Origin: a virus | Virus record (IMG/VR): IMGVR_UViG_3300032288_004867 | Span: 1-59,347 of that record | Strand: one strand, 5' to 3' | DNA length: 59,347 nt | In this document: piece after piece, positions 1 to 54,290 of the stretch | Layout of the letters: each line of letters starts with the position of its first letter | How positions within the stretch are numbered: position 1 is the stretch's first letter | Notes under the pieces: model-generated | Told to the model about the DNA's origin: nothing | Database searches by the model: none | Seen by the model: the letters and a program-made list of their open reading frames with translations, nothing else | Made by a program: the position numbers and the translations under genes

Positions 1-905
1 CAGCACCAGTATGCCCAATTAAATTTTTTATTAAAGAACCATTAGTTGCATCCCATATTCTAGAATTACCGTCTGAAGATGCTGTAACTACTTTAGTCCC
101 ATCTGGACTAAAATTAGCATCAAATACAGAAGAAATATGACCAACTAATGTGAATAATACATTACCATTAGTCACATCCCATATTCTAGCGGTTTTATCA
201 CGAGATGCTGTTACTACTTTAGTTCCATCTGGACTAAAATTTGCATCATATACAGCACCAGTATGCCCAATTAAATTTTTTATTAAAGAACCATTAGTTG
301 CATCCCATATTCTAGAATTACCGTCTGAAGATGCTGTAACTACTTTAGTCCCATCTGGACTAAACATGGCACTATATACAGAGCTAGTATGACCAGATAA
401 CTTAAATAAACTATTACCATTGGTTGCATCCCATATTCTAGCAGTATCATCATATGAAGCTGTCACTACTTTAGTTCCATCTGGACTAAAATTTGCATCA
501 TATACCATATCAGTATGCCCAATCAATGTGAATAATGAATTACCATTAGATACATCCCATATTCTAGCGGTTTTATCAATAGATGCTGTTACTACTTTAG
601 TCCCATCTGGACTAAACATGGCGCTATATACAGAGCTAGTATGACCAGATAACTTAAATAAACTATTACCATTAGATACATCCCATATTCTAGCGGTTTT
701 ATCATATGAAACTGTAACTACTTTAGTCCCATCTGGGTTGAATTTAGCATAATCTACCATATTAGTATGACCAGATAACTTAAATAAACTATTACCATTG
801 GTTGCATCCCATATTCTAGCAGTATTATCACGAGATGATGTTACTACTTTAGACCCATCTGGACTAAACATGGCATTACTTAAAGGAAAAGTATGACCAG
901 ATAAT
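1..905 (-). repeat. WD40-coding tandem repeat, 126-nt period
   Basis: Seven WD dipeptide codons lie at positions 55, 181, 307, 433, 559, 685 and 811, exactly 126 nt (42 codons) apart. An eighth repeat starts at the window edge. Positions 1-113 and 253-365 are identical, so some units were duplicated recently as 252-nt pairs. Confidence 0.9.
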
Positions 906-10307: not shown

Positions 10308-13139
10308 TTAGATATCATCAAATGATGCACCAGTTGGTACGATGTTAAATTCTACACATATAAATTCTAACGCTCTAGTTGGTTTTAAGAATATTCTACC
10401 ACATAACTCATTTCTATCAATTGATTCTGGAGTTACATCAAGAACAACTCTAAAGTCTGTTAAACCTCTTTGTGACCTAATATTGTCTAATATTGGGTTA
10501 ACCAAACTTAAGAACTGATTTCTAACGATATCATCATTTTGTTCGAATAGTAATCTAATTGCAACAGCAGAAATAAGTTTTCTAGCTTGTAACAATAGTC
10601 TTCTAACATTGATTCTATCAAGAGCACTTTCTTTAACTTGTAATGTTTTATTACCCCAAATTTTAATACCTTCAGATGCGAATGTTGCAATTGGGTTAAT
10701 TCTATTTTCGTATAATGTATCTCTTTCACCTAAAGTTAACTTAACTCTAGCTTTGATAGCATCAACATCACCTCTTTGAACACCAGCTACAGCGAACCAT
10801 GGGAATGCGATATTATCCGTTAAAGCTATGTTTCTAACAACATCTCTTGTTGGTGGCACATAGATATAAACATTATTCTCAGCATCGTTAATTTGAATCC
10901 ATGGCCAGTAAGTACATGTGTAGTTACTATCAAATTGACCATATAATTGGTCAGCAACATCTTCTGGTAATAATACCTCACCTCCAGCATCAGTATCTGG
11001 TGTTGTAACAATGTATAAAGAGTCAGCTCTATCTTGCTCAACCATTTCAATAGCTTCTTCAATTAAGTTAGTATTGCTAAATGTATCAATACCTGGAGTT
11101 GCAAATACGTTAATATTTGTTGCTTCTGGATTTTTAAATGTCCAAATAGCTTCTAAGTATGCGTAATAATCAGATGTAATACCTGGGTCACCATTAGATA
11201 ATGTTCTATTACTAAAAGTACCATTAACCAAACCAACAGAACCTTTTGTACCATTAATTAAATAAGGGTCAGTGTTTGTTCTTCTTGTTCTATATGGGTC
11301 CCAACCATCAAATCCACCATAAGGTACAAAGGTAAACTTACGAGAATATAATTTTTCATATGAAGTACCTTCTAATTGGAAATCATTTTGGAAAGGACAA
11401 CAACCAGTTTCGAATTCATATACTGGACAATATGTACCACCAGATGCATTTATAACAACACAAACATTATCAATTGTTGCCATACTAGCACCACTATCCA
11501 TGTGGAATCCTTTTGTTAATCCAGTCCACATATCAATAACTGAACTATCTGGCGCACCTTTATAATCAAAGAAATCTTGGTCAATACCTTTTGTATCAGT
11601 TAAACCTAAATAATATTTACGTTTGTTTTCAAATACACCATAATCTTTTTTATATTCAATTGTTGGTGCTTGAACATTTGTGTTACCATTTTCAGTATAA
11701 TCTCTTTGTGGGTAACCAACAAATCCAGCTGGGAAAGATTCTTTATTATCTGAATCATCCATTTCAATTAATACATAATTAGACATTGAAGGAAATTCAC
11801 CATCTAATGTACCTATTCTTTTAGCAATATAATTATTAGATGCTGGATTCATAGAACATCTACTAAATGATTCTAAAACATTTGGTCTAGCATCTGTGTC
11901 ATAATAACTTCTAACAATTAAATCAAATTCTTTTAAATCTGGTTGAATATTTCTAATTGATATTTTAAATTGTTTATTTGCTGCATCACCATCAGAAATA
12001 GTCCAAAGTCTAAATAATCTAAATACGTTAGTACCACGAAGTTCAGATACAACCCATGGTGTTACAGCTGGTTGGAATTCTTTTTTGAAATCATCAAATG
12101 CTTTATCGTATTCAACTAAATTAGTTATATTAATACCTAAAACTTGTTCATTTGATATATAATCAGCAAACATATTTTCATATATTTCTTCAACAAATAT
12201 TGTTGTTTTACCATCTTGTGGGTCTCTACCTAAAACTCTTGGTAAATAATTTTTCTTAGTTTTATCAAAAGATAATACATAACTAAATGGTCCAGATATG
12301 CTACCAGTACCAAATATTTCAAATTCACCATATGGGTCAATTTCAGCTGTAGTAACACTAGTACCAAAACCGATTTGTGTATTTGCAGAAATTTCAAATA
12401 CTAATTGCTCATTACCATTATATTTACCTCTAGACCTTAATAAAGTCAAAAGTTTACCCTCAACATTAGAATAACCAGCACCAGAATATTGAATTGTAAT
12501 ACCTGAAGTTGTACCAGTTGTACCATTTGAGTCAGATACTGTAGATGTCAATGTTAAACCAACAGTTTCAGCACCTTGAAATACTGTACCAACCTTTTCA
12601 AATGTTTCTGGGATATCAGAAACTGGACCAACAGATGCAGAAACTAAATAATCAAGACCTATCACATTATTATTCCATAAACTTTGTATAACTGAGTTTG
12701 TTGAAACTAAATTAGTTATTGAACCAGTTGAATCAGCAGTAAATGAAATTAATGGGTCATTTGAAGTAGTTGAAGCAATACCAACTGTTGATGGGTCTAA
12801 TGCTGAACTTAACGTTATACCCCATGCTCTACCACCATCATAACCAGAAAACCCTAATACTCTGGTAACAAATAATTGATTTGATTGTGATAAATATGAT
12901 TTTGCAATATATGGTAATTCATATTTAGGGGCACCATTATCTTTTACTCTAGTCGCATTACAAGAACCAAAGAATGATACAAACTCATCGTAGTTTGAAA
13001 CAAAAATAGGTTGAAATGCTGGACCTTGTGTTGTTTCACCAACTAACCCCAATGTTGTTACACCAACCTGACGTGTAACGAATGTTAAGTCTTTCTCTGA
13101 GGTATAGACACCTGGACTGACGAATACTTTATCTGCCAT
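10308..13139 (-). CDS. Contractile tail sheath protein, T4 gp18-like
   Basis: 943 residues, longer than T4 gp18 (659). The N-terminus MADKVFVSPGVYTSEKDLTF and following VGVTTLGLVGETTQGPAF are the classic sheath opening. The C-terminal ~150 residues (RGDVDAIKARVKLTLGERD, INPIATFASEGIKIWGNKTL, VRRLLLQARKLISAVAIRLL, LCGRIFLKPTRALEFICVEF) form the conserved sheath core that interlocks with neighbouring subunits and the tube. The excess length lies in the middle (roughly 130-700), where sheath proteins carry variable surface domains. It forms the contracting outer tail tube. Transcribed from a TATTTAT promoter 43 bases upstream and ended by a strong hairpin. Confidence 0.95.
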   Translation of the reverse strand: MADKVFVSPGVYTSEKDLTFVTRQVGVTTLGLVGETTQGPAFQPIFVSNYDEFVSFFGSCNATRVKDNGAPKYELPYIAKSYLSQSNQLFVTRVLGFSGYDGGRAWGITLSSALDPSTVGIASTTSNDPLISFTADSTGSITNLVSTNSVIQSLWNNNVIGLDYLVSASVGPVSDIPETFEKVGTVFQGAETVGLTLTSTVSDSNGTTGTTSGITIQYSGAGYSNVEGKLLTLLRSRGKYNGNEQLVFEISANTQIGFGTSVTTAEIDPYGEFEIFGTGSISGPFSYVLSFDKTKKNYLPRVLGRDPQDGKTTIFVEEIYENMFADYISNEQVLGINITNLVEYDKAFDDFKKEFQPAVTPWVVSELRGTNVFRLFRLWTISDGDAANKQFKISIRNIQPDLKEFDLIVRSYYDTDARPNVLESFSRCSMNPASNNYIAKRIGTLDGEFPSMSNYVLIEMDDSDNKESFPAGFVGYPQRDYTENGNTNVQAPTIEYKKDYGVFENKRKYYLGLTDTKGIDQDFFDYKGAPDSSVIDMWTGLTKGFHMDSGASMATIDNVCVVINASGGTYCPVYEFETGCCPFQNDFQLEGTSYEKLYSRKFTFVPYGGFDGWDPYRTRRTNTDPYLINGTKGSVGLVNGTFSNRTLSNGDPGITSDYYAYLEAIWTFKNPEATNINVFATPGIDTFSNTNLIEEAIEMVEQDRADSLYIVTTPDTDAGGEVLLPEDVADQLYGQFDSNYTCTYWPWIQINDAENNVYIYVPPTRDVVRNIALTDNIAFPWFAVAGVQRGDVDAIKARVKLTLGERDTLYENRINPIATFASEGIKIWGNKTLQVKESALDRINVRRLLLQARKLISAVAIRLLFEQNDDIVRNQFLSLVNPILDNIRSQRGLTDFRVVLDVTPESIDRNELCGRIFLKPTRALEFICVEFNIVPTGASFDDI

Positions 13140-18321: not shown

Positions 18322-18339
18322 AATATATTTTTTTTATTT

Positions 18340-18346
18340 ATAAATA
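18340..18346 (-). promoter_or_regulatory. Putative late promoter core TATTTAT
   Basis: Minus-strand AATATTTATAAATAAAAA, 18 bases before the ATG of the giant SHAEG gene. Confidence 0.55.
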
Positions 18347-21103: not shown

Positions 21104-22036
21104 TTAAAATGATGTAATTATTACCAAACCATCTCCACCATTTCCACCTCTACCACCAGTACCATTATAAGCACCACCACCACCACCACCACCAGAACCA
21201 AATGAACCGTTACCACCATCACCACCATTACCTGTTTGTGCACCAGCCCCACCAGCACCACCACCACTAAATAATGGATTTCTAGATAAACTATCCATTG
21301 ATGTTAATGTTGGCCTAAAACCATTTTCACCACTTTGACCAGAAACTAAACCACCATTTATTGTTGGTATAAATCCATTACCAGTAATGCTAGCACCAAC
21401 TGAAATAGTACCACCAGCGGTAGTTCCACCACCCCCACCACCACCAGTTAATAAACTAGTAACAGATACATTTGTTGGTGTTGAACCAATTGATGAACCA
21501 ACGGTTGAACTAGCAGAAGCAAATGAATTAACAATACCAATATAACTAACTGGTCTAGCGGTTGAAAAAGTAAAACCACCAGCAGCACTACCAAAAGTAC
21601 CAGACCCAGATGATAAACCACCACCACCACCAGTCGCAGCAGTACTATTACTCATTAGTAAAATATTTTGATTAGTAGAAAATGGGTTAATAGATATGTA
21701 AGAAATACCTCCAGCAACACCAGCAGACCCATTAGCACCAGCACCACCAGCACCACCAGCACCACCAGCACCAACTTGAATATATAAAATATCTGGTAAT
21801 AATGATGCTAAATAAAAACCTTTAGTTATGGCAGAACCACCACCACCAGAACCACCACCAGATGAGTTTATTGAAGAACCTCTACCTCCACCACCACCAG
21901 AACCACCACCAATAGCTAAAATACTAATAAATTTACAATTTTTAGGTTTTTGCCAAGTTTGCCATGCAGTAGAACCATTGGTGTAAAATATATCTGTATT
22001 ATAAGAACCGTCAACAAAATTAAATAAATCAATCAT
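21104..22036 (-). CDS. Glycine-rich adhesin-like protein 1
   Basis: 310 residues. The N-terminus is conserved (FYTNGSTAWQTWQKPKNCKF), then many GGGSGGGGG and GGAGGAGGAG runs, ending GGNGGDGLVIITSF. To my knowledge, Gly-rich domains with the GGDGLVIITW-type end occur in phage tail-tip proteins. The T-even gp38 adhesins (for example phage S16) fold such sequence as a polyglycine type II sandwich whose loops contact the receptor. Receptor binding at a fibre tip is inferred. One of three tandem paralogues (gaps of about 15 bases) that differ mainly between the glycine runs. Confidence 0.7.
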   Translation of the reverse strand: MIDLFNFVDGSYNTDIFYTNGSTAWQTWQKPKNCKFISILAIGGGSGGGGGRGSSINSSGGGSGGGGSAITKGFYLASLLPDILYIQVGAGGAGGAGGAGANGSAGVAGGISYISINPFSTNQNILLMSNSTAATGGGGGLSSGSGTFGSAAGGFTFSTARPVSYIGIVNSFASASSTVGSSIGSTPTNVSVTSLLTGGGGGGGTTAGGTISVGASITGNGFIPTINGGLVSGQSGENGFRPTLTSMDSLSRNPLFSGGGAGGAGAQTGNGGDGGNGSFGSGGGGGGGAYNGTGGRGGNGGDGLVIITSF

Positions 22037-22051
22037 AAATTAAAAAAACAA

Positions 22052-22942
22052 TTACCAAGCTGTTATTATTACCAAACCATCACCACCATTTCCACCTCTA
22101 CCAGCATTACCAGCTGAACCAGCTCCACCTCCACCACCTCCACAACCAAATGCACCATCACCACCATTACTACCAGCACCTAAAGCACTACCAGAACCAC
22201 CACCACCACCAGTGAAAAATAATGGTTGTTGCATTGATGAATTAAATGATGTTATTGAGTTAAATCCACTAGAACCAACTTCAGATGTGGTTACCGCACC
22301 ATATATTTTTGGTACAAACCCAACTTCTGGTGAATCAATTGAACCACCACTAAAAGACAAAGCACTGGCACCACCACCAGCACCACCACCAGAAACAATA
22401 TTATTTATAGTAACTGAACTACCATTATTAGCAATAAGTCCAGCTCCACCAGATGAACCAATTACCGCTTGAAAATAACCTAAATAACTTAAAATACTAT
22501 TTGTTTGAATTGAAAGTGTTCCACCACCACCAGCAGTGCCAATAGCTAAACCACCATTACCACCATTAAAACCATTTCTCAATAAAACATTCCCAGATGT
22601 TGTGTTAGGTAAAAATGATACATATGATAAACCACCACCAGTACCATTAGCACCACTATTTCCACCAGCACCACCAGCACCAACTTGAATATATAAAATA
22701 TCTGGTAATAATGATGCTTGATAAAAACCTCTAGCTATTGCAGAGCTACCTCCACCACCTCCACCAGACCTATTTCCAGTACCAGCAGAGCCACCACCAC
22801 CTCCACCACCTCCACCTAATGTGAAAATATTTACAAATTTACAATTTTTAGGTTTTTGCCAAGTTTGCCATGTAGTAGAACCGTTAGTATAAAAAACCCA
22901 ATTAATTATATTAGTACCAGGAACATTAAAAATATCCATCAT
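22052..22942 (-). CDS. Glycine-rich adhesin-like protein 2
   Basis: 296 residues, paralogue of its two neighbours. The N-terminus shares FYTNGSTTWQTWQKPKNCKF and the end is GGNGGDGLVIITAW. Two segments are nearly identical to protein 1 (GFYQASLLPDILYIQVGAGG). The stretch between them (about 125-230) has diverged, as expected for receptor-contacting loops between polyglycine strands. No promoter is visible in the 14-base gap, so it is probably co-transcribed with 1 and 3. The leader AATTTAT is retained immediately before the ATG. Confidence 0.7.
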   Translation of the reverse strand: MMDIFNVPGTNIINWVFYTNGSTTWQTWQKPKNCKFVNIFTLGGGGGGGGGSAGTGNRSGGGGGGSSAIARGFYQASLLPDILYIQVGAGGAGGNSGANGTGGGLSYVSFLPNTTSGNVLLRNGFNGGNGGLAIGTAGGGGTLSIQTNSILSYLGYFQAVIGSSGGAGLIANNGSSVTINNIVSGGGAGGGASALSFSGGSIDSPEVGFVPKIYGAVTTSEVGSSGFNSITSFNSSMQQPLFFTGGGGGSGSALGAGSNGGDGAFGCGGGGGGAGSAGNAGRGGNGGDGLVIITAW

Positions 22943-22956
22943 AAATTAAAAAACAA

Positions 22957-23850
22957 TTACCAAGCTGTTATTATTACCAAACCATCACCACCATTTCCAC
23001 CTCTACCTCCAGCTGAACCAGCACCACCTCCACCACCTCCACAACCAAATGCACCGTCACCACCTTTACCACCTACACCAGCAGAAAAAGCACCACCACC
23101 ACCTCCACCTAAAAACATTGTTGGAGCTAATTTTGTTATTCCATCATTAGGGAAAGCAGTACATATACCAACTGAACCATTACCACCACCAACAGCACCG
23201 CCAGATATTAATGGTGAAAATGTGGTTGCAGCAACACTACCACCAGCGTTATTACCACCAGTATTTGTTGCAGTACCACCACCAGCTCCACCACATGTTA
23301 TTGTGGTTGGTGTAATTGAACTATTTGATGCTGAACCATTTGAACCTGGAACCGTACCAATAACACCTAAATAAGATAAAAATCCATTACCTTGAGAAAA
23401 TACAGAACCAGCTGTACCACCTAAACCAGATGATGAACCACCACCAGCTGCTACAGCTGTGGCACTAGTTAATAGAACGTTTGTTTTAGCTAAATTTGCT
23501 TCAAATGAAACATATGATATTGAACCTTGAGAACCAGTTGTATCAGCATCTCCACCATCACCACCAACCCCAACTAAAACGTTTAAATTATCTGGTAATA
23601 AATTAGCTGGAAATAAACCAAAGGTTGCGGAGGCAGCGGCACCACCACCACCACCAGACCTGTTGGTTGATGCTATTCCACTAACACCACCAGCACCACC
23701 AGCACCACCACCTAAAACAAAAATATACACAAATTTACAATTTCTAGGTTTTTGCCAAATCTGCCAATCACCTGTTGAAGTTGTACCTGATGCATTTTGA
23801 AAAAATATTCGTGTACTATTACTTTTTGGTATGTCAAATAAGTCAAGCAT
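22957..23850 (-). CDS. Glycine-rich adhesin-like protein 3
   Basis: 297 residues, first transcribed of the three paralogues and the most divergent. The N-terminal aromatic motif is DWQIWQKPRNCKFVYIFVLG. The middle has ANLLPDNLNVLVGVGGDGGD in place of the LYIQVGAGG version, and the end is GGNGGDGLVIITAW. The dense Gly codons make a long antisense proline-rich frame that is not a gene. It starts 2 bases after the stop of the 142-residue gene, so translation is probably coupled. A fibre-tip or receptor-binding role is inferred. Confidence 0.7.
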   Translation of the reverse strand: MLDLFDIPKSNSTRIFFQNASGTTSTGDWQIWQKPRNCKFVYIFVLGGGAGGAGGVSGIASTNRSGGGGGAAASATFGLFPANLLPDNLNVLVGVGGDGGDADTTGSQGSISYVSFEANLAKTNVLLTSATAVAAGGGSSSGLGGTAGSVFSQGNGFLSYLGVIGTVPGSNGSASNSSITPTTITCGGAGGGTATNTGGNNAGGSVAATTFSPLISGGAVGGGNGSVGICTAFPNDGITKLAPTMFLGGGGGGAFSAGVGGKGGDGAFGCGGGGGGAGSAGGRGGNGGDGLVIITAW

Positions 23851-30904: not shown

Positions 30905-32866
30905 TTAATATTGACCCCCATCTAAAATATCAAATTCGGCTAACACTCTCACACCATTTGGTGAACCTTCGTTTTTATTTGTGTTTCTAATTACAATATC
31001 ATTTAGTTGAGTAACCCAACCTCTATTATTGTACCCAGTTAATCCTGTATATTCTGAAACATTTGGAATATTACTAGGTGTTAAACCAGTAAGGTTTTGC
31101 ATTTGACCTATTGTAAAGTAAGTATTACCACTTGCAATACCATTACCATCTTGAATTCTAATACCTGAAGAAACTGAAGTTGCAATTGTAGAACCAGTAG
31201 GGTTATAGTTTAAAGTCACTTGCGGGTCTTCAACATATAATTCAGTAGTTGCAACAATTGTTTCAGTACCAAATACAGTTAAATTACCATGCACTGTTAA
31301 ATTACCAATACCAGGTGTGGATAATGAACCACCAGAACCAATTACTAAACCACCTTGACCAATGTTTGCGGTTGTACCTGATGCATTTTGAACATTAATA
31401 TTACCAACTGTTAAAGTATTTGCTGATTGAGAATATTCAAATCCAGATTCAGTTGTTAATTTACCAGAACCAGTTGTATAAACAACTCTATTAGCTGATA
31501 ATGTTGAAACTGTTAAACCTGTAACTGAACTTATTTGTGCAGTTAATGGTGATTCACCTTGATTTCTATCTATTGTAAAGGTATTATCACCTGGGTTATA
31601 TGTAAATCCAGTAACGTATGTATCTCTACCATCTATAATACTTAATAAGTTAGTACCACCACTATAAATTGTTGTGGCATCAATCGTTGATGCTGTAGTC
31701 GGACCTAAATATGTATTACCAGTTACAGTTAAATTACCATTTATTGTTAACCCACTCATTGAAGTGATAGTGACACTTAATGGTGCTTCACCTTCATTTT
31801 GATAAATTGTCAATGTATTTGCTGAAGCTGTGTAAGTATAAGCAGTAACATAAGTATCATTTATATCAATAGCACTTAAATCTAATGTATAAGCAGATAA
31901 TGACTCATTAGTGTTAAAATAAACAGTATCACCTATTAATGTTGCACCAGTTGTTTGAACATCAGTTAATCCAGTAATTGGAATATCAACATTATCATTT
32001 CTTTTTAAAGTTACAGTTGCATTTAAATTTTTACTATCATAAGAAACAGTACCACCAGTAACATAAGTGTCATTAACATCAATTGAACTTAAATCAACAG
32101 TATATGGTGTACCATCATTTCTATTAAATGTTATTAAATTAGTATTATTATCATAAGTACCACCAGTTGTATAAGTATCTTCACCTGATAAAGTATTAGG
32201 ACTATTTAATGGAACTCCATGATAATCTAAAGTAAATGTGGTATTATTACTATTGTCAGTTGCTGGTGTATAAGTAGCACCAGTAACATATACATCATTA
32301 GTTTGACTAAACCCAGTTAAATAATCAACATTAACTATTTCATTAGGGTTTGTACCACCTACATTTTGATAATAATAAGATGAACCACTAAGATTTGTTG
32401 TACCAGTTACCGTTAAATCACCAATAGTTAATGCTGTAAATGCGTTAATATTTACTGATACATTTGGTTTATTATTATTTAATTTTAATGTAAGAGTATT
32501 TGGTGTCCAAGTAGCTCCTGTAGTATAAGAGTCAACCGAATTTGCAATATCAGTAATATCAGCTAATACAAAACCATTTGTTGTACCAGATAAGAATTTA
32601 CCAGAAAGATTTGTTAATCCACTATATGATGTTATTTGGTTTCTAATTTTTAAATCATATAAATTAGAACCAACCTCAAAGAAGTTTGCATTTCCACCAG
32701 GTCCAGCTGGTGTCCATTCTGATGTTGATGAAGTTATACCTGAAAACATTAAAATACCGTCAGCGGTATTAACTATTGCTTCACCTTTTAATAATGTTGC
32801 CCCAGAAAACGGAGCACTAGGTACTGTATTATTTTTAATTACTAACCTGGTTTGTCTTGTTGCCAT
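30905..32866 (-). CDS. Tail fibre shaft protein, 653 residues
   Basis: The N-terminus (TRLVIKNNTVPSAPFSGATL, GEAIVNTADGILMFSG) is the same fibre-type opening as in the 2155-residue gene. The shaft is built of loosely repeated units with D(T/V)YVTGGTY...LTxxRNxGxP...VDLSSID, about 35-60 residues each. The C-terminal part has LTVHGNLTVFGTETIVATTE followed by a VEDPQVTLNYNPTGSTIATS segment. To my knowledge this pattern occurs in T4-like long-fibre and baseplate-attached proteins. The end FDILDGGQY matches the end of the next gene (DDILNGGNY). No SHAEG repeats. Probably a fibre subunit or connector between baseplate and distal adhesins. Own promoter and terminator. Confidence 0.7.
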   Translation of the reverse strand: MATRQTRLVIKNNTVPSAPFSGATLLKGEAIVNTADGILMFSGITSSTSEWTPAGPGGNANFFEVGSNLYDLKIRNQITSYSGLTNLSGKFLSGTTNGFVLADITDIANSVDSYTTGATWTPNTLTLKLNNNKPNVSVNINAFTALTIGDLTVTGTTNLSGSSYYYQNVGGTNPNEIVNVDYLTGFSQTNDVYVTGATYTPATDNSNNTTFTLDYHGVPLNSPNTLSGEDTYTTGGTYDNNTNLITFNRNDGTPYTVDLSSIDVNDTYVTGGTVSYDSKNLNATVTLKRNDNVDIPITGLTDVQTTGATLIGDTVYFNTNESLSAYTLDLSAIDINDTYVTAYTYTASANTLTIYQNEGEAPLSVTITSMSGLTINGNLTVTGNTYLGPTTASTIDATTIYSGGTNLLSIIDGRDTYVTGFTYNPGDNTFTIDRNQGESPLTAQISSVTGLTVSTLSANRVVYTTGSGKLTTESGFEYSQSANTLTVGNINVQNASGTTANIGQGGLVIGSGGSLSTPGIGNLTVHGNLTVFGTETIVATTELYVEDPQVTLNYNPTGSTIATSVSSGIRIQDGNGIASGNTYFTIGQMQNLTGLTPSNIPNVSEYTGLTGYNNRGWVTQLNDIVIRNTNKNEGSPNGVRVLAEFDILDGGQY

Positions 32867-41830: not shown

Positions 41831-42199
41831 TTATTTTTTTATACTACCATCTAAAATGTGTATGTATAATTCTTCCCTGATTGGAACTATCAATGTACCA
41901 CCACCATCTAAAAATTCAATAATAAATTGACCAATATATGTTCCAGGTTTTTTTGTTTCTTTTTCTGAAAATTTATAACCAATATAGTATTCTTCAGTAC
42001 CACATGATGAATCTTTTGGTAAACAAAGTGCTGGTTTTTTACCAATAACCTTAATACCAGTTTCTAATTCAGCCATAGAAAAATATATGTTAGAATTTTG
42101 TATTAATTCATATAATTTAGACATATCATTTCTACCATCTTGAATTACATCTAATTTCATGATTGGTAATGTAGCATTTTTGTTTATGTAGAAATCCAT
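41831..42199 (-). CDS. Baseplate upper-protein-like (BppU N-terminal-like) domain protein
   Basis: 122 residues. DFYINKNATLPIMKLDVIQDGRND, SNIYFSMAELETG, then YYIGYKFSEKETKKPGTYIG, FIIEFLDGG and VPIREELYIHIL form an Ig-like strand pattern. It resembles the N-terminal domain of phage baseplate BppU-type proteins, which attach receptor-binding proteins to the baseplate. The match is by pattern only. Here the domain stands alone without a C-terminal fibre. Its neighbour 23 bases upstream is the heptosyltransferase homologue. A TATTTAT core lies 13 bases before its ATG. Confidence 0.5.
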   Translation of the reverse strand: MDFYINKNATLPIMKLDVIQDGRNDMSKLYELIQNSNIYFSMAELETGIKVIGKKPALCLPKDSSCGTEEYYIGYKFSEKETKKPGTYIGQFIIEFLDGGGTLIVPIREELYIHILDGSIKK

Positions 42200-42222: not shown

Positions 42223-43272
42223 TTAATTTTTAAATTCTAAATATTTTTTTATGGATTCAATGACAGTATCTGGGTGTGTTATATTTAATGCATTATAGTC
42301 AATATTTTTTAAATCTGGATTAGCAGATATTCTTGTAACATTACTTTTAAATTCATGGTCAATATGTGTGACATCACTAATTAAAAACGTGTAAGTGTTA
42401 ACACCCCACGCTAACCAAGATAAACCAGAACTAAGACCCATAAAAAAATCAGCATTTTTTAATGTGAGACCCCTATCCATTATTGATTTGTTACCAGTTA
42501 AATCAATAACATTTGTTAATGTGGTTGGTTCTTTAGAAATAACTAAAACATCATACCCTAATGATACTAAGAAATCAACAATAATTTGCCAACCACCTGG
42601 GTATTTCCAATGTTTTTTCTCATGACTTGCATATTCAGAAATACATACATATTTTTTACCGTAATTAATGTTACTAAATTGAAGTTCTAATTGAGGTCTT
42701 AATTCCACTAATGGTAAATAAAGTAATGAACTAGCAACATTTTGCAATGGAACATAATCAACAGATACAGGTGAATATTTTGGTGTTAAATCATGTGTGG
42801 CACCTATATAATATTGAGTATATATATTATCTACATTTGTGTTAGGGGCAACAAATAATATTTCTTTATATATATTTTTAAATAAATCATTAAAAAACGT
42901 TGAACATATTACTTTACAGTTTCTTAATTTTCTGAATTCATCAACATATGCAATCCAAGCGATATTATCACCTAAAGCATGAGCATCCATTTTTATAAAG
43001 ACAACTTCATTAGTAACATCAAAAATATCTCGACCTATTAATTTACCATTTTCATAAATTTCTATTTGCCAATCATTATACCATTGATTAAAATTAGCAA
43101 AAACAGTTTCATTTGTTTTACATTTTGTACGTTTTACCGTATAAATACCATCTTTTTTTACTATATTAAATAAAACTTCATATTCAGATGGTATATCCCC
43201 ATAAACAGAAACCGAAGGTGCGTTAGCTTCCTTCGGTAATGTTGTTTTGTAATTAAAGTTAGCGTAATTCAT
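42223..43272 (-). CDS. TibC/AAH-like autotransporter heptosyltransferase homologue
   Basis: 349 residues. Diagnostic text: FIKMDAHALGDNIAWIAYVD (93-112), CKVICSTFFNDLFKNIY (119-135), YTQYYIGATHD (151-161), WKYPGGWQIIVDFLVSLGYD (222-241) and ADFFMGLSSGLSWLAWG (274-290). This series matches the TibC/AAH branch of GT9-like enzymes, which transfer ADP-heptose to serines of autotransporter adhesins. Known members (about 400 residues) have a C-terminal cluster of four cysteines that binds iron. This protein ends about 60 residues earlier and has no cysteine after C210, so it lacks the cluster. It may use another sugar or a different oligomer. Surrounded by YadA-like fibre genes; a self-glycosylation role is inferred. 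Confidence 0.75.
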   Translation of the reverse strand: MNYANFNYKTTLPKEANAPSVSVYGDIPSEYEVLFNIVKKDGIYTVKRTKCKTNETVFANFNQWYNDWQIEIYENGKLIGRDIFDVTNEVVFIKMDAHALGDNIAWIAYVDEFRKLRNCKVICSTFFNDLFKNIYKEILFVAPNTNVDNIYTQYYIGATHDLTPKYSPVSVDYVPLQNVASSLLYLPLVELRPQLELQFSNINYGKKYVCISEYASHEKKHWKYPGGWQIIVDFLVSLGYDVLVISKEPTTLTNVIDLTGNKSIMDRGLTLKNADFFMGLSSGLSWLAWGVNTYTFLISDVTHIDHEFKSNVTRISANPDLKNIDYNALNITHPDTVIESIKKYLEFKN

Positions 43273-43315: not shown

Positions 43316-43576
43316 TTATGCTTTTGGTGCTTCACCAATGATATCTTCTCTAACTACAGGTGTAGGTAATACCACTGGTTCAATTTTATCAACCACTAAT
43401 AATGCGTCATTAGTGTTTTTTAAAATAACGTCATTAGAATCAGCTTCAGCACCATCAAATGATACCGAATAAATCATAAATTCATTATCTGAAACTAATA
43501 CATTCCATCTACCTGATTCAAATGTTGCACGAACAATTTTAGTTAATGCAATTTCTTCTTGTGTTAATTTTGCCAT
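43316..43576 (-). CDS. Small protein, function unknown
   Basis: 86 residues. It begins with a helix (LTQEEIALTKIVRATFESGR), then beta strands and an acidic-proline tail. The central WNVLVSDNEFMIYSVSFDGAEAD has no motif I recognise. There is no membrane segment. It precedes the heptosyltransferase homologue by 43 bases with no promoter between them, so the two are probably co-transcribed from the TATTTAT core 32 bases upstream of this gene. A partner or accessory role for the transferase is possible but untested. Confidence 0.6.
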   Translation of the reverse strand: MAKLTQEEIALTKIVRATFESGRWNVLVSDNEFMIYSVSFDGAEADSNDVILKNTNDALLVVDKIEPVVLPTPVVREDIIGEAPKA

Positions 43577-43608
43577 TTTTTTTGTTTTTTTTTATTATTA
43601 TTTATTAT

Positions 43609-43615
43609 ATAAATA
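43609..43615 (-). promoter_or_regulatory. Putative late promoter core TATTTAT
   Basis: Minus-strand ATATTTATATAATAAAT, 32 bases before the ATG at 43576. It would drive the small gene and the heptosyltransferase homologue. Confidence 0.5.
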
Positions 43616-43623
43616 TATGTAAA

Positions 43624-45957
43624 TTATAAAAAAGCTAAAGAAATCATAGTAGTTGTAACTGATGCGCTATTACGTCTAAAAGTGGTTAAAGGTAGATTAA
43701 ACAATAAATCTCTAGTACCATCTGGTTTGATTTTTATAATTCTTGTTGGGTTGTAATTTTGATATTGTATATAACCCACTAAATATATGTTACCCTTTGA
43801 ATCGATAAATATATTATTTATATTATTATTAGTAACCCCAGCTCTCATATTAAACGTTTCATCAATTGAACCATCGTAATTAAGTCTAATAAAAGCATTA
43901 TAAGGTTTGTTTTTATAAGTTGTAAAAGAACCAGCCACGTAAATTTTATCACCCCACATTTCCATATTATTTACAGTAGAATCAAACCCAGTACCATAAT
44001 TAAATGTATTATCAATGGAACCATCGGTATTTAACCTAATTATTCTATTTGCAGAAACACCTTTATATGTGGTAAAAACACCACCGACTAGTATTTTACC
44101 ATAATTATCAACTAAAATTTTATTTGTAAAAGAATTAAAACCTATTGAATTATCAAATGAATTATCTTTATACCCTGTTGATGTTAGTTTAATTATTCTA
44201 TTATTTGTTGAACCAGAAAATGTAGTAAAATCACCACCTAAATAAATGTTATTTGATGAATCAAAATCCATTGTATTATAAAATGCTAGTTGTAATCCAG
44301 CTCTATTAAATGTATTATCAATACTAGCATCTGGATTTATTTTAACAATTCTAGGTACTGAAACACCTTTATATGTTGTAAATCCACCCATAATAAATAA
44401 TTTACCAAGATTATCCTCGAATATGTTATTTACAGTATTATTTGCTCCCGTTGAAACACTTATTGCTGGATTTGGTGAACCGTCCATATTTAAACCTAAT
44501 AAACCAATAGCTCTATAAGATGAATTTAATAATGAATAATATTCAAAATAACCACCAATGTAGATATTATTAGTTTTTGATTTTAAAATTGAACGAGTAG
44601 AAAGATTATTTAAAACTCCAGCAGATATCCCATAATTCGGGTTAAACGAAGTATTAGTTTTAGCGTTATATGTTTTTAAGGAATATAATGCATTAGGTTC
44701 CTTATATGAATTAAATCTACCACCAATCACAAGATTATTTAAATTATCAAATTTGATAACATCAATTGTTTGACCATACCCATGACTACCATTATAATCA
44801 AAAGTGTTATCTAATGAACCATTACTATTTAACCTTATTAAATTATTAACAACTGTTGTATTTGAATTATACATAGTGAATATACCACCAACCACTACTT
44901 TATTGTTAACATCAATAGCTATTGATGTTAACAATAAAGCACTACTAGTTGAAAAACTATGTGTGAATGTAGTATCTTTACTACCATTATTGTTTAATTT
45001 TATGAGTCTATTATTAGTTGCACCATTATATGTAGTAAACCTACCACCAACATAAATTTTATCTGAACTATCAATAGTTATTTCACGTATTTCATCATTA
45101 AACCCAGTACCATAAACAAATGTACTATCAATGGAACCATTGGTATTTAATCTAATTATTCTATTTGCAGAAACACCTTGGTATGTAGTAAAAGTAGTAC
45201 CACCAACTACTATTTTACCTAATGAATCTAATTTAATTTTAGTAACTGAATTATTAAACCCAGTACCATAAACAAATGTACTATCAATGGAACCATCGGT
45301 ATTTAACCTAATTATTCTATTTGCAGAAACACCTTGGTATGTAGTAAAATTCCCACCAACTACTATTTTACCATCAGGTTGTATTTGTAATATATTTACA
45401 GTAGAATCAAACCCAGTACCATAAACAAATGTACTATCAATGGAACCATCAGTATTTAACCTAATTATTCTATTCGCAGAAACACCTTTATACGTTCTAA
45501 AATTCCCACCAACTACTATTTTACCATCAGGTTGTATTTGTAATATATTTACTGCTTCATTAAAACCAGTATCATAAACAAATGTATTATCAATGGAACC
45601 ATCGGTATTTAACCTAATTATTCTATTCGCAGAAATACTTTTATACGTGGTAAAATTACCACCAACATAATATTTATTATTAGAATCAATTACAATTTGG
45701 TTTATAATTGGGTATACACCACTATCGTTTACATCTAAAAAACCATAATCAACTATAAATGTATTATCAATAGAACCACCAGAAAAAATTCTAGCAATTC
45801 CACCACTATATTTATCAAACCCTTTAAAAAATCCAGCAACTAATATATTAGTGTTGTCATCGTCATATGTAACGTAATCAATATTATCAATGTTAGTATT
45901 AGTAACTGAATTAATTTTAGTTGTAGCTGAGAAATCTATGTTAAAAATTTTTGGCAT
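43624..45957 (-). CDS. Delta-60 repeat beta-propeller protein
   Basis: 777 residues built almost entirely of about 14 repeats of ~50 residues. The pattern is IxxDxxxKIxVGGxFTTYxGVSANRIIRLNxDGSIDxTFxxGTGF, the delta-60 (DUF5122) type predicted to form beta-propellers. Several adjacent repeats are nearly identical in DNA, implying recent expansion. There is no signal peptide. It lies between the heptosyltransferase unit and the 1479-residue fibre, starting 2 bases after that fibre's stop, so the two are probably translated together. A receptor-binding or fibre-tip propeller is inferred. Its coding sequence holds the 42-bp perfect palindrome. Confidence 0.8.
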   Translation of the reverse strand: MPKIFNIDFSATTKINSVTNTNIDNIDYVTYDDDNTNILVAGFFKGFDKYSGGIARIFSGGSIDNTFIVDYGFLDVNDSGVYPIINQIVIDSNNKYYVGGNFTTYKSISANRIIRLNTDGSIDNTFVYDTGFNEAVNILQIQPDGKIVVGGNFRTYKGVSANRIIRLNTDGSIDSTFVYGTGFDSTVNILQIQPDGKIVVGGNFTTYQGVSANRIIRLNTDGSIDSTFVYGTGFNNSVTKIKLDSLGKIVVGGTTFTTYQGVSANRIIRLNTNGSIDSTFVYGTGFNDEIREITIDSSDKIYVGGRFTTYNGATNNRLIKLNNNGSKDTTFTHSFSTSSALLLTSIAIDVNNKVVVGGIFTMYNSNTTVVNNLIRLNSNGSLDNTFDYNGSHGYGQTIDVIKFDNLNNLVIGGRFNSYKEPNALYSLKTYNAKTNTSFNPNYGISAGVLNNLSTRSILKSKTNNIYIGGYFEYYSLLNSSYRAIGLLGLNMDGSPNPAISVSTGANNTVNNIFEDNLGKLFIMGGFTTYKGVSVPRIVKINPDASIDNTFNRAGLQLAFYNTMDFDSSNNIYLGGDFTTFSGSTNNRIIKLTSTGYKDNSFDNSIGFNSFTNKILVDNYGKILVGGVFTTYKGVSANRIIRLNTDGSIDNTFNYGTGFDSTVNNMEMWGDKIYVAGSFTTYKNKPYNAFIRLNYDGSIDETFNMRAGVTNNNINNIFIDSKGNIYLVGYIQYQNYNPTRIIKIKPDGTRDLLFNLPLTTFRRNSASVTTTMISLAFL
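44898..44939. repeat. Perfect 42-bp palindrome inside the propeller gene
   Basis: Two 21-base arms with no spacer, centred between 44918 and 44919; the left arm begins CTTTATTGTTAACATC. Because it is self-complementary, both strands encode the same peptide LLTSIAIDVNNK. The minus-strand reading fits the delta-60 repeat, so that strand is the gene. Confidence 0.9.
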
Positions 45958-45958
45958 A

Positions 45959-48900
45959 TTATGTTAATTGAATAAATGTAGGGTCAACATTAAACATTAT
46001 TGAATTTGTATTAGCTAATTTATAACCAACCACTCTAACTATATAACCAACACCTGAAGGTGGGTATTCTGATATTAAACCATCAGTTGTTGTTAAATAT
46101 AATGGTTGACCAGCCGTACCTGTTAAAAATGTATTATTAGCAAAACCGTTTATTAACATACCATTTGTTGATGGGTTAGTACCAATTGCAATACCTATTA
46201 AACCAGTTGATTTTAATATATCTGAAGCATTTGTTTTGGCCCAAGTATTATCACTTTTTAAATAATAAACATAACCAGCTTCAGTTGTACCATTACCAAC
46301 CTTCAATATATCACCATTATAAGTGTTAGCTATATTTATATCTTGGAAAACTCTACTATTAGAAGATATTGTACTAACATCTCTATATTTTACGGAACCA
46401 TCAGATGCCCTAACTAATATATTTGTTAATGTATTATCACTTGAAGGTGTTGTTGCTATATTTAAATTAGGTACATATACTGTATCATTATATGTACCAA
46501 TAATACCTTGACCACCTAATACAACACTTCTATCTCCGTCTACCCTTGAACTAATTGAATGTATAAATGATGCATTACCATTAGCTCTTGAATTATTACC
46601 ACCAGCATGTGAATTAGTACCAATTGCGGTTGTATAAAAACCTTCAGCATGTGATGCAATACCAATTGCGGTAGTATATACACCTTCAGAATGTGACCAT
46701 TGACCACTAGCTGTTGTATTATCACCTTCAGCATGTGATGCCTGACCACTAGCTATTGTATAACTACCCTCAGCATGTGCTGATTTATTTGATGCAGTTG
46801 TTCCAGAACCCTCAGCATGTGATGCACTACCAGATGCCCTAGTACCAAAACCTTCAGCATGTGATGAATTACCTTGAGCAGTTGTTGACCTACCCTCAGA
46901 ATGTGATGTAGTACCACTTGCTGTTGTATTACTACCTTCAGCATGTGATGCCTGACCACTAGCTGTTGTATTAGCTCCTTCAGCATGTGCACCATAATTA
47001 CCAATAGCTTTTGTTGATTGACCTTCAGCATGTGAATAAGTACCACTAGCTAATGTTGCACCACCCTCAGCATGTGATAAATCACCACTAGCTGATGTAT
47101 AAAAACCTTCAGCATGTGATACATAACCAATAGCTTTTGTACCTGACCCTTCAGCATGTGACATATCACCATTAGCAGTTGTTTGACTACCCTCAGCGTG
47201 TGATGATGCACCATTTGCTGTTGTATTATTACCTTCAGCATGTGACGAATTACCAATTGCTATTGTATAACTACCCTCAGCATGTGCTGATGTATTTGAT
47301 GCTGATGTATAAGAACCTTCAGCATGTGAAGCTTCACCACTAGCTATTGTAACACCACCTTCAGCATGTGAATAATTACCAATTGCTGATGTACTATCAC
47401 CTTCAGCATGTGAATAAGTACCAAGTGCTTTCGTATTATCACCTTCAGCATGTGATGCACCACCACTAGCTGTTGTTTGATTACCTTCAGCATGTGAATA
47501 TAAACCAAAAGCAGTTGTAAAAATACCTTCAGCATGTGAGTAATCACCATTAGCTGTAGTGTTACCACCTTCAGCATGTGAAAATTGACCACTAGCTGTT
47601 GAACCAATTGATTGTAGTGAATTATGTAATGTTATTGGTGAACAACCATATAAATTAGAAATATATAAATCAGTAATACAAGAAGCTGATGTATTCCCAG
47701 TAAAATCTAAAGCTGATAAATCAACAGTATATGCTGATAATGAATTAACCCTATCAAAATATAACATATTATTTGATAAAGTTGTACCAGTTACTGATAA
47801 TGGTAAATTATTATATTCGGTAGATGATAAATGATAATATTCTCCTGGTGCACCACCTTGAATATTTAATAAATCATTATGGAATCCAGATGCATAACCA
47901 GATGGTTGGAATACTGTACCAAATGATGTTTGTGTAATACCAGTTAATTCACCAACTTTAACAATAATTCTACCAACTAAAAATGCATGTGAAGTTATTA
48001 ATTCTGGTAATGTTGGTTCAGAAGCTGATTCAGCTTCTAAAATTGATAAATACTCATTGTTACCATAAACTTCATATAAATGGTCATTTATTTCTTGACC
48101 TCTATAATAATAATTAACTATATAATTACCAGTTGTTGCTGATACTACATCATTACCATCATCATAATAAGTATTATTTAATGTATTTCCAGTTGTTGTA
48201 TATGTCCATGTACCACCACTATGGTAATTCTTAAAGAATATATCATCTTGTGAATTCACAGCAGTTAACTGTTGTCTATAAGGACCGTTCCAAGCAACAC
48301 CTGATGATAATAAAACAACACCAGTTGAACCACTTAAACCTAATGATAAACCACTTTCTCTTGCGAATCTATCGGTCATCATTAACCTATCATTAAGTTT
48401 ATTAGGTAATCCAGCTCCGTAATTACCAAATTCTAGAACATGTATAAAATTATTTAATCTATAAACAACCAAATATAATACAATATCACTATCATTTACT
48501 GTACCATCATTATTTAAAACTTCATAAATTGGATTACCATTATTGTAATTAATAACAATGTAATTCGTATCATTATCAACTAATGGGTTAATACCACCAG
48601 AACCAGAAACACCAGCTGAAACATTATAAACCATAATAGGTTCAATGTTATCTGAATTATTAAATAATGCTACTTTTAATGCTGGTAAATTAATTTGACC
48701 AGTTCCAGTTGAGGTCCAACCTGTTGCACCACTAATAACACCAGCTGAATATGTTGTGGTTGATGAAACCACAAAAGTACCACCTGTATTATTTGTGAAA
48801 GTAGTGAAACCATTATTATATGTACCACCAGTAGTATAAACGTCACTAAAACCACTAATTGATACTGTACCACCAGTATTATTTGTTAAAATTAATGTTT

Positions 48901-50398
48901 TATTTATATTGTTAAATGTACCACCAGTAACAAATACCTCAGTACTACCAGTGTAGAATCCATTAATGGATACTGTACCACCAGTATTATTTGTTAAAGT
49001 TAAAGTACCATTAGAATATGAACCACTTACAGTTTTAGTGTCAAATTTAGGTAAATCAACACAAAGTGTTGTACCATTACCACTAATCGAACCACCACTT
49101 AATATAATATCGCCATTTAATACAACTAACTGTGAATCATCATTTAATTTTAATAACCCTTGTATATATAAATCACCATATATAAACGATTGATGATTCT
49201 CGTCAATTTCAAAAACTTCACCACTAGGTATGTACCAATAATTACCATATAATGAATTAAATCCATTAATAGATACTGTACCACCAGAATTATTTGTTAA
49301 TGTTAATAAACCATTAGTATATGTACCATTAACAGTTTTAGTGTCAAATTTAGGTAAATCAACACAAAGTGTTGTACCATTACCACTAATCGAACCACCA
49401 CTTAATATAATATCACCATTTAATACAACTAATTGAGCATTATCATTTAATTTTAATAAACCTTCGATATATAAATCACCATATATAAATGATTGGTGAT
49501 TTTCTTCAATTTCAATAACTTCACCACTAGGTATATGCCAATAATTACCATATAATGAATTAAACCCATCAATAGTTATTGTGCCACCAGTATTATTATT
49601 TAATGTTAATATTTTATTAAGTTCATTAAATGTACCACCAGTAACAAATACTTCAGTACTACCAGTGTAGAATCCATCAATGGATACTGTACCACCAGTA
49701 TTATTTGTTAAAGTTAAAGTACCATCACTATATGTACCACTTACAGTTTTAGTATCAAATTTAGGTAATTCAACTGATAATGTTGTACCATTACCACTAA
49801 TCGAACCACCACTTAATATAATATCACCATTTAATACAACTAATTGTGAGTTGTCGTTTAGTTTAATTAATCCTTGAACATATAAATCACCATATATAAA
49901 TGATTGATAATCACTAGGTATTTCAACAACAACATCAGATGGAATATACCATCTGTTACCATCATTTCTTATAATTGATGATAAATCAACAGTATAAGCT
50001 GATAACGTATCAGTTCTATCAAAAACTAAGGTTTCATCAACCAATGTAACACCAGTTGTATAATAGTTTGTGTATCCAGTTAAAAATCCAGACACATCAA
50101 ATGTACCACCTGTATTATTTGTAAATGTGGCAATACCATTTGTTGGATTATAAGTACCACCTGTTATGTAACTATCAGAACCACCACCAATACCATTTAT
50201 TGTTATTGTATTACCATTTATTTTTTGTAATACTAATTGATTACCACTTGTGTAACCAGAATGGATTAACTCACCTTTTAAATATATAAAATTATTATCA
50301 ACGTCAGCCCATGATAAAACACTACCAGTTGTTATATCATTAAAAGGACTAACCCAGGGGCTAATTACACTACGTAATATTAACTTATTATTTGCCAT
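45959..50398 (-). CDS. Multi-module SHAEG tail fibre, 1479 residues
   Basis: The N-terminal module contains SPWVSPFNDITTGSVLSWAD and DNNFIYLKGELI, which I associate with Bacteroidota phage fibres. Three large repeats follow (about 140-460) with QSFIYGDLYIxGLLKLND and LSGGSISGNGTTL. A mixed beta region comes next, then about 24 SHAEG repeats (about 936-1266) with cap SFIHSISS...RSVVLGGQGI, and a C-terminal head (about 1340-1479, YVYYLKSDNTWAK...GQPLYLTTTDGLISEYPPSG). The last module resembles the common phage C-terminal fibre domain. Trimeric fibre inferred. A TATTTAT core lies 12 bases upstream; 2 bases separate it from the propeller gene, which is probably a fibre partner. Confidence 0.78.
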   Translation of the reverse strand: MANNKLILRSVISPWVSPFNDITTGSVLSWADVDNNFIYLKGELIHSGYTSGNQLVLQKINGNTITINGIGGGSDSYITGGTYNPTNGIATFTNNTGGTFDVSGFLTGYTNYYTTGVTLVDETLVFDRTDTLSAYTVDLSSIIRNDGNRWYIPSDVVVEIPSDYQSFIYGDLYVQGLIKLNDNSQLVVLNGDIILSGGSISGNGTTLSVELPKFDTKTVSGTYSDGTLTLTNNTGGTVSIDGFYTGSTEVFVTGGTFNELNKILTLNNNTGGTITIDGFNSLYGNYWHIPSGEVIEIEENHQSFIYGDLYIEGLLKLNDNAQLVVLNGDIILSGGSISGNGTTLCVDLPKFDTKTVNGTYTNGLLTLTNNSGGTVSINGFNSLYGNYWYIPSGEVFEIDENHQSFIYGDLYIQGLLKLNDDSQLVVLNGDIILSGGSISGNGTTLCVDLPKFDTKTVSGSYSNGTLTLTNNTGGTVSINGFYTGSTEVFVTGGTFNNINKTLILTNNTGGTVSISGFSDVYTTGGTYNNGFTTFTNNTGGTFVVSSTTTYSAGVISGATGWTSTGTGQINLPALKVALFNNSDNIEPIMVYNVSAGVSGSGGINPLVDNDTNYIVINYNNGNPIYEVLNNDGTVNDSDIVLYLVVYRLNNFIHVLEFGNYGAGLPNKLNDRLMMTDRFARESGLSLGLSGSTGVVLLSSGVAWNGPYRQQLTAVNSQDDIFFKNYHSGGTWTYTTTGNTLNNTYYDDGNDVVSATTGNYIVNYYYRGQEINDHLYEVYGNNEYLSILEAESASEPTLPELITSHAFLVGRIIVKVGELTGITQTSFGTVFQPSGYASGFHNDLLNIQGGAPGEYYHLSSTEYNNLPLSVTGTTLSNNMLYFDRVNSLSAYTVDLSALDFTGNTSASCITDLYISNLYGCSPITLHNSLQSIGSTASGQFSHAEGGNTTANGDYSHAEGIFTTAFGLYSHAEGNQTTASGGASHAEGDNTKALGTYSHAEGDSTSAIGNYSHAEGGVTIASGEASHAEGSYTSASNTSAHAEGSYTIAIGNSSHAEGNNTTANGASSHAEGSQTTANGDMSHAEGSGTKAIGYVSHAEGFYTSASGDLSHAEGGATLASGTYSHAEGQSTKAIGNYGAHAEGANTTASGQASHAEGSNTTASGTTSHSEGRSTTAQGNSSHAEGFGTRASGSASHAEGSGTTASNKSAHAEGSYTIASGQASHAEGDNTTASGQWSHSEGVYTTAIGIASHAEGFYTTAIGTNSHAGGNNSRANGNASFIHSISSRVDGDRSVVLGGQGIIGTYNDTVYVPNLNIATTPSSDNTLTNILVRASDGSVKYRDVSTISSNSRVFQDINIANTYNGDILKVGNGTTEAGYVYYLKSDNTWAKTNASDILKSTGLIGIAIGTNPSTNGMLINGFANNTFLTGTAGQPLYLTTTDGLISEYPPSGVGYIVRVVGYKLANTNSIMFNVDPTFIQLT
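46600..47600 (-). repeat. SHAEG-coding 42-nt repeat array
   Basis: About 24 in-frame units in the 1479-residue fibre. One unit has the GNYGAHAEG one-residue insertion also seen in the gene at 18355. Confidence 0.85.
49020..49960 (-). repeat. Three-copy fibre module repeat
   Basis: A block including LVVLNGDIILSGGSISGNGT occurs three times. The first two copies in the window are near-identical at exactly 300 nt offset (for example 49051 and 49351). The third, around 49765, is more diverged. Confidence 0.8.
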
Positions 50399-54264: not shown

Positions 54265-54283
54265 GTCTTAATTAATTTTATTA

Positions 54284-54290
54284 ATAAATA
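54284..54290 (-). promoter_or_regulatory. Putative late promoter core TATTTAT
   Basis: Minus-strand ATATATTTATTAATAAAA, 19 bases before the ATG at 54264. Confidence 0.5.

Follow-up and report, generated by a model that had tools for sequence, protein, structure and literature searches.

The closest described relatives of the phage protein considered here are TibC and AAH, bacterial O-heptosyltransferases (BAHTs) whose partners are classical autotransporters. BAHTs act on repetitive beta-solenoid proteins, and TibC mutants affected in the iron finger or the thumb lose both the dodecamer and the activity (PMC4358343). Pro-300 limits TibC to one epimer of ADP-heptose, whereas AAH, with Ser-294, takes both. 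A further BAHT homologue, BimC of Burkholderia, is encoded next to the BimA autotransporter; BimC binds iron, and it reportedly binds BimA directly but lacks glycosyltransferase activity (PMC6439308). Thus, a homologue encoded beside an autotransporter may be inactive. The glycosyltransferases encoded by mycobacteriophage Maravista have been taken to suggest virion glycosylation, although the target proposed there is the capsid and not a tail fibre (PMC11256854). The TibC catalytic domain also occurs in phages, including Microcystis phage Mel-JY01, LR756501, LR756504 and an uncultured Caudovirales phage whose protein is named 'Glycosyltransferase Aah/TibC' in UniProt (A0A6J5SVC1). Literature searches of partial coverage on phage TibC, on phage sulfotransferases with tail fibres and on YadA fibres with heptosyltransferases yielded nothing usable.

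The window, i.e. the whole stretch of 59,347 nucleotides that was analysed, is a genome fragment from a contractile-tailed phage. The sheath gene is 31-37% like those of Mel-JY01, cyanophages and a huge uncultured phage, and its polB shows a distant likeness to Salinibacter phages. An open reading frame in the window, starting with ATG, encodes a protein of 349 residues (Table 1) that is a relative of the TibC/AAH O-heptosyltransferases by sequence and fold. The original prediction had assigned the protein to this family from a run of short motifs (ALGDNIAW, ICSTFFNDLF, YTQYYIGA and others), all of which are present, and had proposed a search against TIGR and Pfam models. The single NCBIfam match is TIGR04414 (hepto_Aah_TibC, E 5.8e-53), the model for autotransporter strand-loop-strand O-heptosyltransferases, at 180.2 bits against a curated cut-off of 200; the alignment covers positions 44-317 of the 374 in the profile, leaving its C-terminal part unmatched. 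TibC (4rap) was the sole match of a phmmer search against the PDB (E 7.7e-22), Pfam gave just a sub-threshold match to Glyco_transf_9, and no PHROG family matched the protein.

An AlphaFold2 model built from 25 relatives (mean pLDDT 94.5) has the fold of the TibC protomer, with an N-terminal beta-barrel and a GT-B core. Foldseek placed TibC first (TM 0.84 by query length) and the lipopolysaccharide (LPS) heptosyltransferase WaaC next (0.52). The donor-site residues, whose loss had been named as evidence against the assignment, are retained: TibC D110, T226, K230, R286 and W305 are matched by D102, S216 (Thr to Ser), K220, R267 and W286, as counted by hand in a phmmer alignment with TibC for the residues named in the TibC study (PMC4358343). 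Across 25 finger-less sequences, D102, S216, K220, S281 and W286 are invariant and R267 is nearly so. S281 lies at the position of TibC P300 and equals AAH Ser-294, such that the protein shares with AAH a serine at the stereoselectivity site. With these residues in place, the protein probably works like a TibC-type transferase.

Two elements of TibC and AAH, the four-cysteine iron finger and the beta-hairpin thumb with its hydrophobic tip, are absent from the window protein. In the alignment, eight TibC residues near the F265/V266 tip are left unpaired, and the model shows no hairpin strands over residues 245-263 or so. The protein is not a full BAHT member as that family is defined, because it has neither finger nor thumb; since both are needed for the ring in TibC, the dodecamer as described presumably cannot serve the phage protein. 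The predicted TibC/AAH assignment thus holds for the profile match, the fold and the donor site, but not for the profile cut-off, the finger and the thumb. The missing elements would also fit a protein without catalysis that chaperones or targets fibre proteins, as a partner like BimC might do; BimC is reported to bind BimA without transferase activity (PMC6439308). However, the catalytic and donor-site positions that were mapped show conservation throughout the clade, and a scaffold would not need them; we regard such a role as improbable. Phage DNA glycosylation, as carried out by the alpha- and beta-glucosyltransferases of T4, is a further conceivable function, given that DNA-modifying GT-B enzymes are common in T4-like phages and that polB is nearby. 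The closest fold, however, is that of a protein heptosyltransferase, and no DNA glucosyltransferase was among the 50 PDB matches listed by Foldseek, making this function highly improbable.

A scan of viral sequences with the window protein as lone query found no relatives; alignment queries against IMG/VR were then used and retrieved at least 568. The gene is therefore not unique among phages, and one phage protein already carries the family name in UniProt. Eighty of these relatives were kept, namely 27 finger-less and 53 finger-bearing viral loci (L044-L096), all from contigs that are fragments and partly redundant. They split cleanly into finger-less, stand-alone proteins of about 341-366 residues, to which the window protein belongs, and finger-bearing, often fused proteins, a form also present in LR756501, LR756504 and Mel-JY01, the last of which has no YadA_head repeats. 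The iron finger is present in 53/53 of the finger-bearing viral loci and in nearly all bacterial relatives. With a second alignment scan, the finger-less set grew to 49 loci, the window among them; 36 of the 49 are distinct, and nearly all lie in phage contigs. The finger-less sequences form one clade, with support of 100/99 in a careful tree with a five-row outgroup and of 99 in a larger, quick tree; in the latter, two distant archaeal sequences from metagenome-assembled genomes (MAGs), also without the full cysteine pattern, fall outside the clade. Among 77 bacterial and archaeal genome loci, nearly all relatives retain the finger, and there is one close finger-less match (L097). The latter lies on a 3.7-kb contig of a Rickettsiales-binned MAG (CAIKLL010000108.1, 1-3756) with ClpP-like and GIY-YIG-like proteins recognized by eye; this contig is probably of phage origin and was misbinned. 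Ratios of dN/dS over eight pairs range from 0.05 to 0.25, which indicates purifying selection to keep the protein.

As in TibC and AAH, the gene is found near genes for repetitive surface fibres, the presumed partner being in this case a YadA-head-like phage fibre. The eight genes with about 200 repeat copies that had been described around it were confirmed, with about 197 SHAEG-type motifs (12+13+55+22+25+18+27+25) counted by the simple pattern that was used throughout to identify SHAEG genes. Pfam detects YadA_head repeats in these genes, and no autotransporter translocator domain is among the Pfam matches of the window. The description of the glycosyltransferase as lying beside the fibre genes needs qualification, for 2.7 kb separate it from the nearest SHAEG gene. 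This closeness is at chance level (gene-rank p = 0.59) and is uninformative, because fibre genes fill the window. No additional glycan-modifying enzyme was seen within the 59-kb fragment. The small open reading frame upstream, which is probably on the same transcript as the glycosyltransferase, keeps its position in L017-L020, L339 and L340; the one downstream is conserved beside polB in the same lineage. Elsewhere in the window, similar 153-bp DNA repeats occur in the DUF5122 propeller gene, a WD40 propeller protein (2-3343) is open at the window edge, and three Gly_rich_2 (PF21722) genes lie in a row at 21104-23850, apparently duplicated.

Table 1. Positions of the glycosyltransferase gene, its neighbours and the SHAEG-type fibre genes in the window.
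Feature	Coordinates	Strand	Evidence or remark
SHAEG/YadA_head repeat protein, 301 aa	13484..14389	(-)	PF05658 E 7.8e-12; 12 motifs
SHAEG repeat protein, 215 aa	14417..15064	(-)	13 motifs; PF05658 repeats
SHAEG/YadA_head repeat protein, 1077 aa	15088..18321	(-)	PF05658 E 1.6e-24; 55 motifs
SHAEG/YadA_head repeat protein, 402 aa	18355..19563	(-)	PF05658 E 2.5e-08; 22 motifs
SHAEG/YadA_head repeat protein, 486 aa	19597..21057	(-)	PF05658 E 8.5e-23; 25 motifs
Fibre protein with SHAEG section, 2155 aa	24295..30762	(-)	18 motifs; PF05658 repeats
122-aa ORF downstream of glycosyltransferase	41831..42199	(-)	Unmatched in Pfam, NCBIfam and PHROGs
Finger-less TibC/AAH-like GT-B glycosyltransferase, 349 aa	42223..43272	(-)	TIGR04414, PDB 4rap, AlphaFold2/Foldseek
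86-aa ORF, immediate upstream neighbour of glycosyltransferase	about 43316..43576	(-)	Gap about 43 nt
Promoter-like motif (TATTTATATAATA)	43603..43615	(-)	Upstream of 86-aa ORF and glycosyltransferase
DUF5122 beta-propeller gene, beyond 86-aa ORF	43624..45957		Pfam, 11 matched stretches
SHAEG/YadA_head repeat protein, 1479 aa (closest of the candidate substrates)	45959..50398	(-)	PF05658 E 2e-11; 27 motifs
SHAEG/YadA_head fibre with Peptidase_S74 chaperone domain, 835 aa	56051..58558	(-)	Pfam; 25 motifs

The motif TATTTAT[ATC] occurs 20 times at 8-60 nucleotides upstream of gene starts in the window, against 1.2 expected, and a longer form, TATTTATWAWWAA, has 42 matches against 18.3 in shuffled sequences. 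Examples of the longer form lie at 18334-18346 and 54278-54290 as well as ahead of the 86-aa reading frame. The same kind of motif precedes the sheath gene and several fibre genes; among the upstream regions of the window's genes, it was not found ahead of polB or the Snf2 helicase. The longer form is likely a late promoter of this phage. Late co-expression of the glycosyltransferase with the tail genes fits this distribution, since the motif is common to sheath and fibre genes and absent before polB and the helicase, but the fit is not proof. The late expression originally proposed from a core at 43609 is consistent with a motif shared with sheath and fibre genes, though the motif fronts the 86-aa reading frame and not the glycosyltransferase directly.

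An enzyme of this kind might instead act on LPS or on a protein of the host surface during infection and so, for instance, prevent re-adsorption or superinfection. Phage-encoded glycosyltransferases that alter the O-antigen are established, and the fold is related to that of LPS heptosyltransferases such as WaaC. However, TibC is much nearer than WaaC in both fold and sequence, and several lineages have the gene in a late or tail module. This role is accordingly rather unlikely.

Co-occurrence of the gene with SHAEG fibres in other phages, which the original prediction had suggested as a check, was borne out in several lineages. A SHAEG gene lies within 10 kb in 12/27 of the finger-less loci, unlike the finger-bearing viral loci (1/53); the control sets gave 1/76 for bacterial loci and 0/59 for terminase loci, the latter being a background for SHAEG only, because it was drawn from a TibC-bearing phage. 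Against the two viral sets, Fisher's test gave p = 3e-6 and 1e-7, with kinship and duplicate contigs uncorrected. Counted over whole contigs, SHAEG genes are present in 12/25 finger-less against 1/25 finger-bearing cases. Conversely, a finger-less TibC gene lies within 10 kb in 5/78 SHAEG loci, as against hundreds in 2.9 million contigs, a rough comparison in which some loci are on the same contigs. In two long contigs, the gene-rank p was 0.017 and 0.037. Linkage appears in three separated branches of the tree (the window clade, the L028/L344 branch and the L035-L043/L348-L358 clade) and requires six changes on it; thus, it was gained or lost several times. No SHAEG gene lies within 5 kb in 22/36 distinct finger-less loci, some with incomplete flanks. 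The largest unlinked group (L024-L031, L341, L343 and L361) is found mostly among small genes of unknown function, outside any tail module. The Ser/Thr content of SHAEG repeats is about equal with and without a TibC gene nearby.

The neighbourhoods of several relatives combine tail genes with further modifying enzymes. In L348, the order is fibre, small gene, TibC, small gene, tail sheath and tail tube, and in L356 it is tail tube, fibre, small gene, TibC and baseplate hub. Beside the finger-less TibC, L023 (4144-5848), L028/L344, L036 (7848-9995) and L350 encode a sulfotransferase together with an APS kinase and a DUF2061 protein; the L344/L210 contig also has, next to a YadA_head fibre, a DUF2827 protein together with a GT8 and a methyltransferase, and in L040 a GT4 lies between fibre and TibC. 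Contig G003 has two TibC-like genes, one finger-less and one finger-bearing (11744-12790 and 31721-32866), each near a different SHAEG fibre gene, and the finger-bearing one is located between fibres with FkbM and multi-GT genes. Judged by gene content, these clusters look like glycan-decoration cassettes next to fibre genes, and the co-location of sulfotransferase, APS kinase and DUF2061 genes with finger-less TibC and SHAEG fibres suggests sulfated virion glycans.

The same neighbourhoods allow for an active protein glycosyltransferase directed mainly at a different virion protein (sheath, tube, baseplate or head) or at a growing glycan, with SHAEG linkage reflecting location in the tail module. 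Sheath, tube and baseplate hub genes are indeed neighbours in L348 and L356, in finger-bearing phage relatives the domain is joined to other glycosyltransferase domains or to methyltransferase domains, with YadA_head repeats absent from those genomes, and more than half of the finger-less clade is without a SHAEG neighbour. Where linked, however, the finger-less gene mostly adjoins a SHAEG fibre and not one constant other structural gene, and repetitive beta-solenoid proteins are known targets of BAHTs (PMC4358343). We consider such a target unlikely, though by no means negligible.

Fibre self-glycosylation is the reading we prefer, with a probability of roughly 0.55: a phage-specific, finger-less TibC/AAH-like enzyme, produced late, would O-glycosylate the SHAEG fibres of its own phage. 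Homology, fold, donor site, linkage, cassettes and the promoter-like motif argue for this part of the original prediction; the SHAEG repeats, no richer in Ser/Thr near TibC, and the many relatives without SHAEG genes argue against it. The glycosyltransferase would be expressed together with the tail genes. Acting in the cytoplasm ahead of assembly, it would transfer a sugar, probably heptose taken from host ADP-heptose, to Ser/Thr residues of the phage's own tail fibres, which have a beta-solenoid (SHAEG/YadA-head-like) character. Neither gmhA nor hldE was found in the finger-less contigs searched, so the donor would come from the host or be another sugar. In related phages, the GT4, GT8, DUF2827, methyltransferase and sulfotransferase plus APS kinase genes probably serve to extend or modify the sugar. 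That the enzyme is active, which donor and acceptor it uses, when it is made and how it might affect fibre stability or binding to the host are all inferred. More tentatively, and with rather more doubt than confidence, a phage-only TibC-like clade without finger, thumb or ring may act with these cassettes to give sulfated or methylated fibre glycans.

If fibre self-glycosylation is correct, some large aquatic phages sugar-coat their own receptor-binding fibres by means of an adhesin-type enzyme, and fibre sequences would have to be interpreted differently with regard to host range and receptor binding. It would also mean that a protein O-glycosyltransferase can be active without the iron-finger dodecamer thought essential for TibC.
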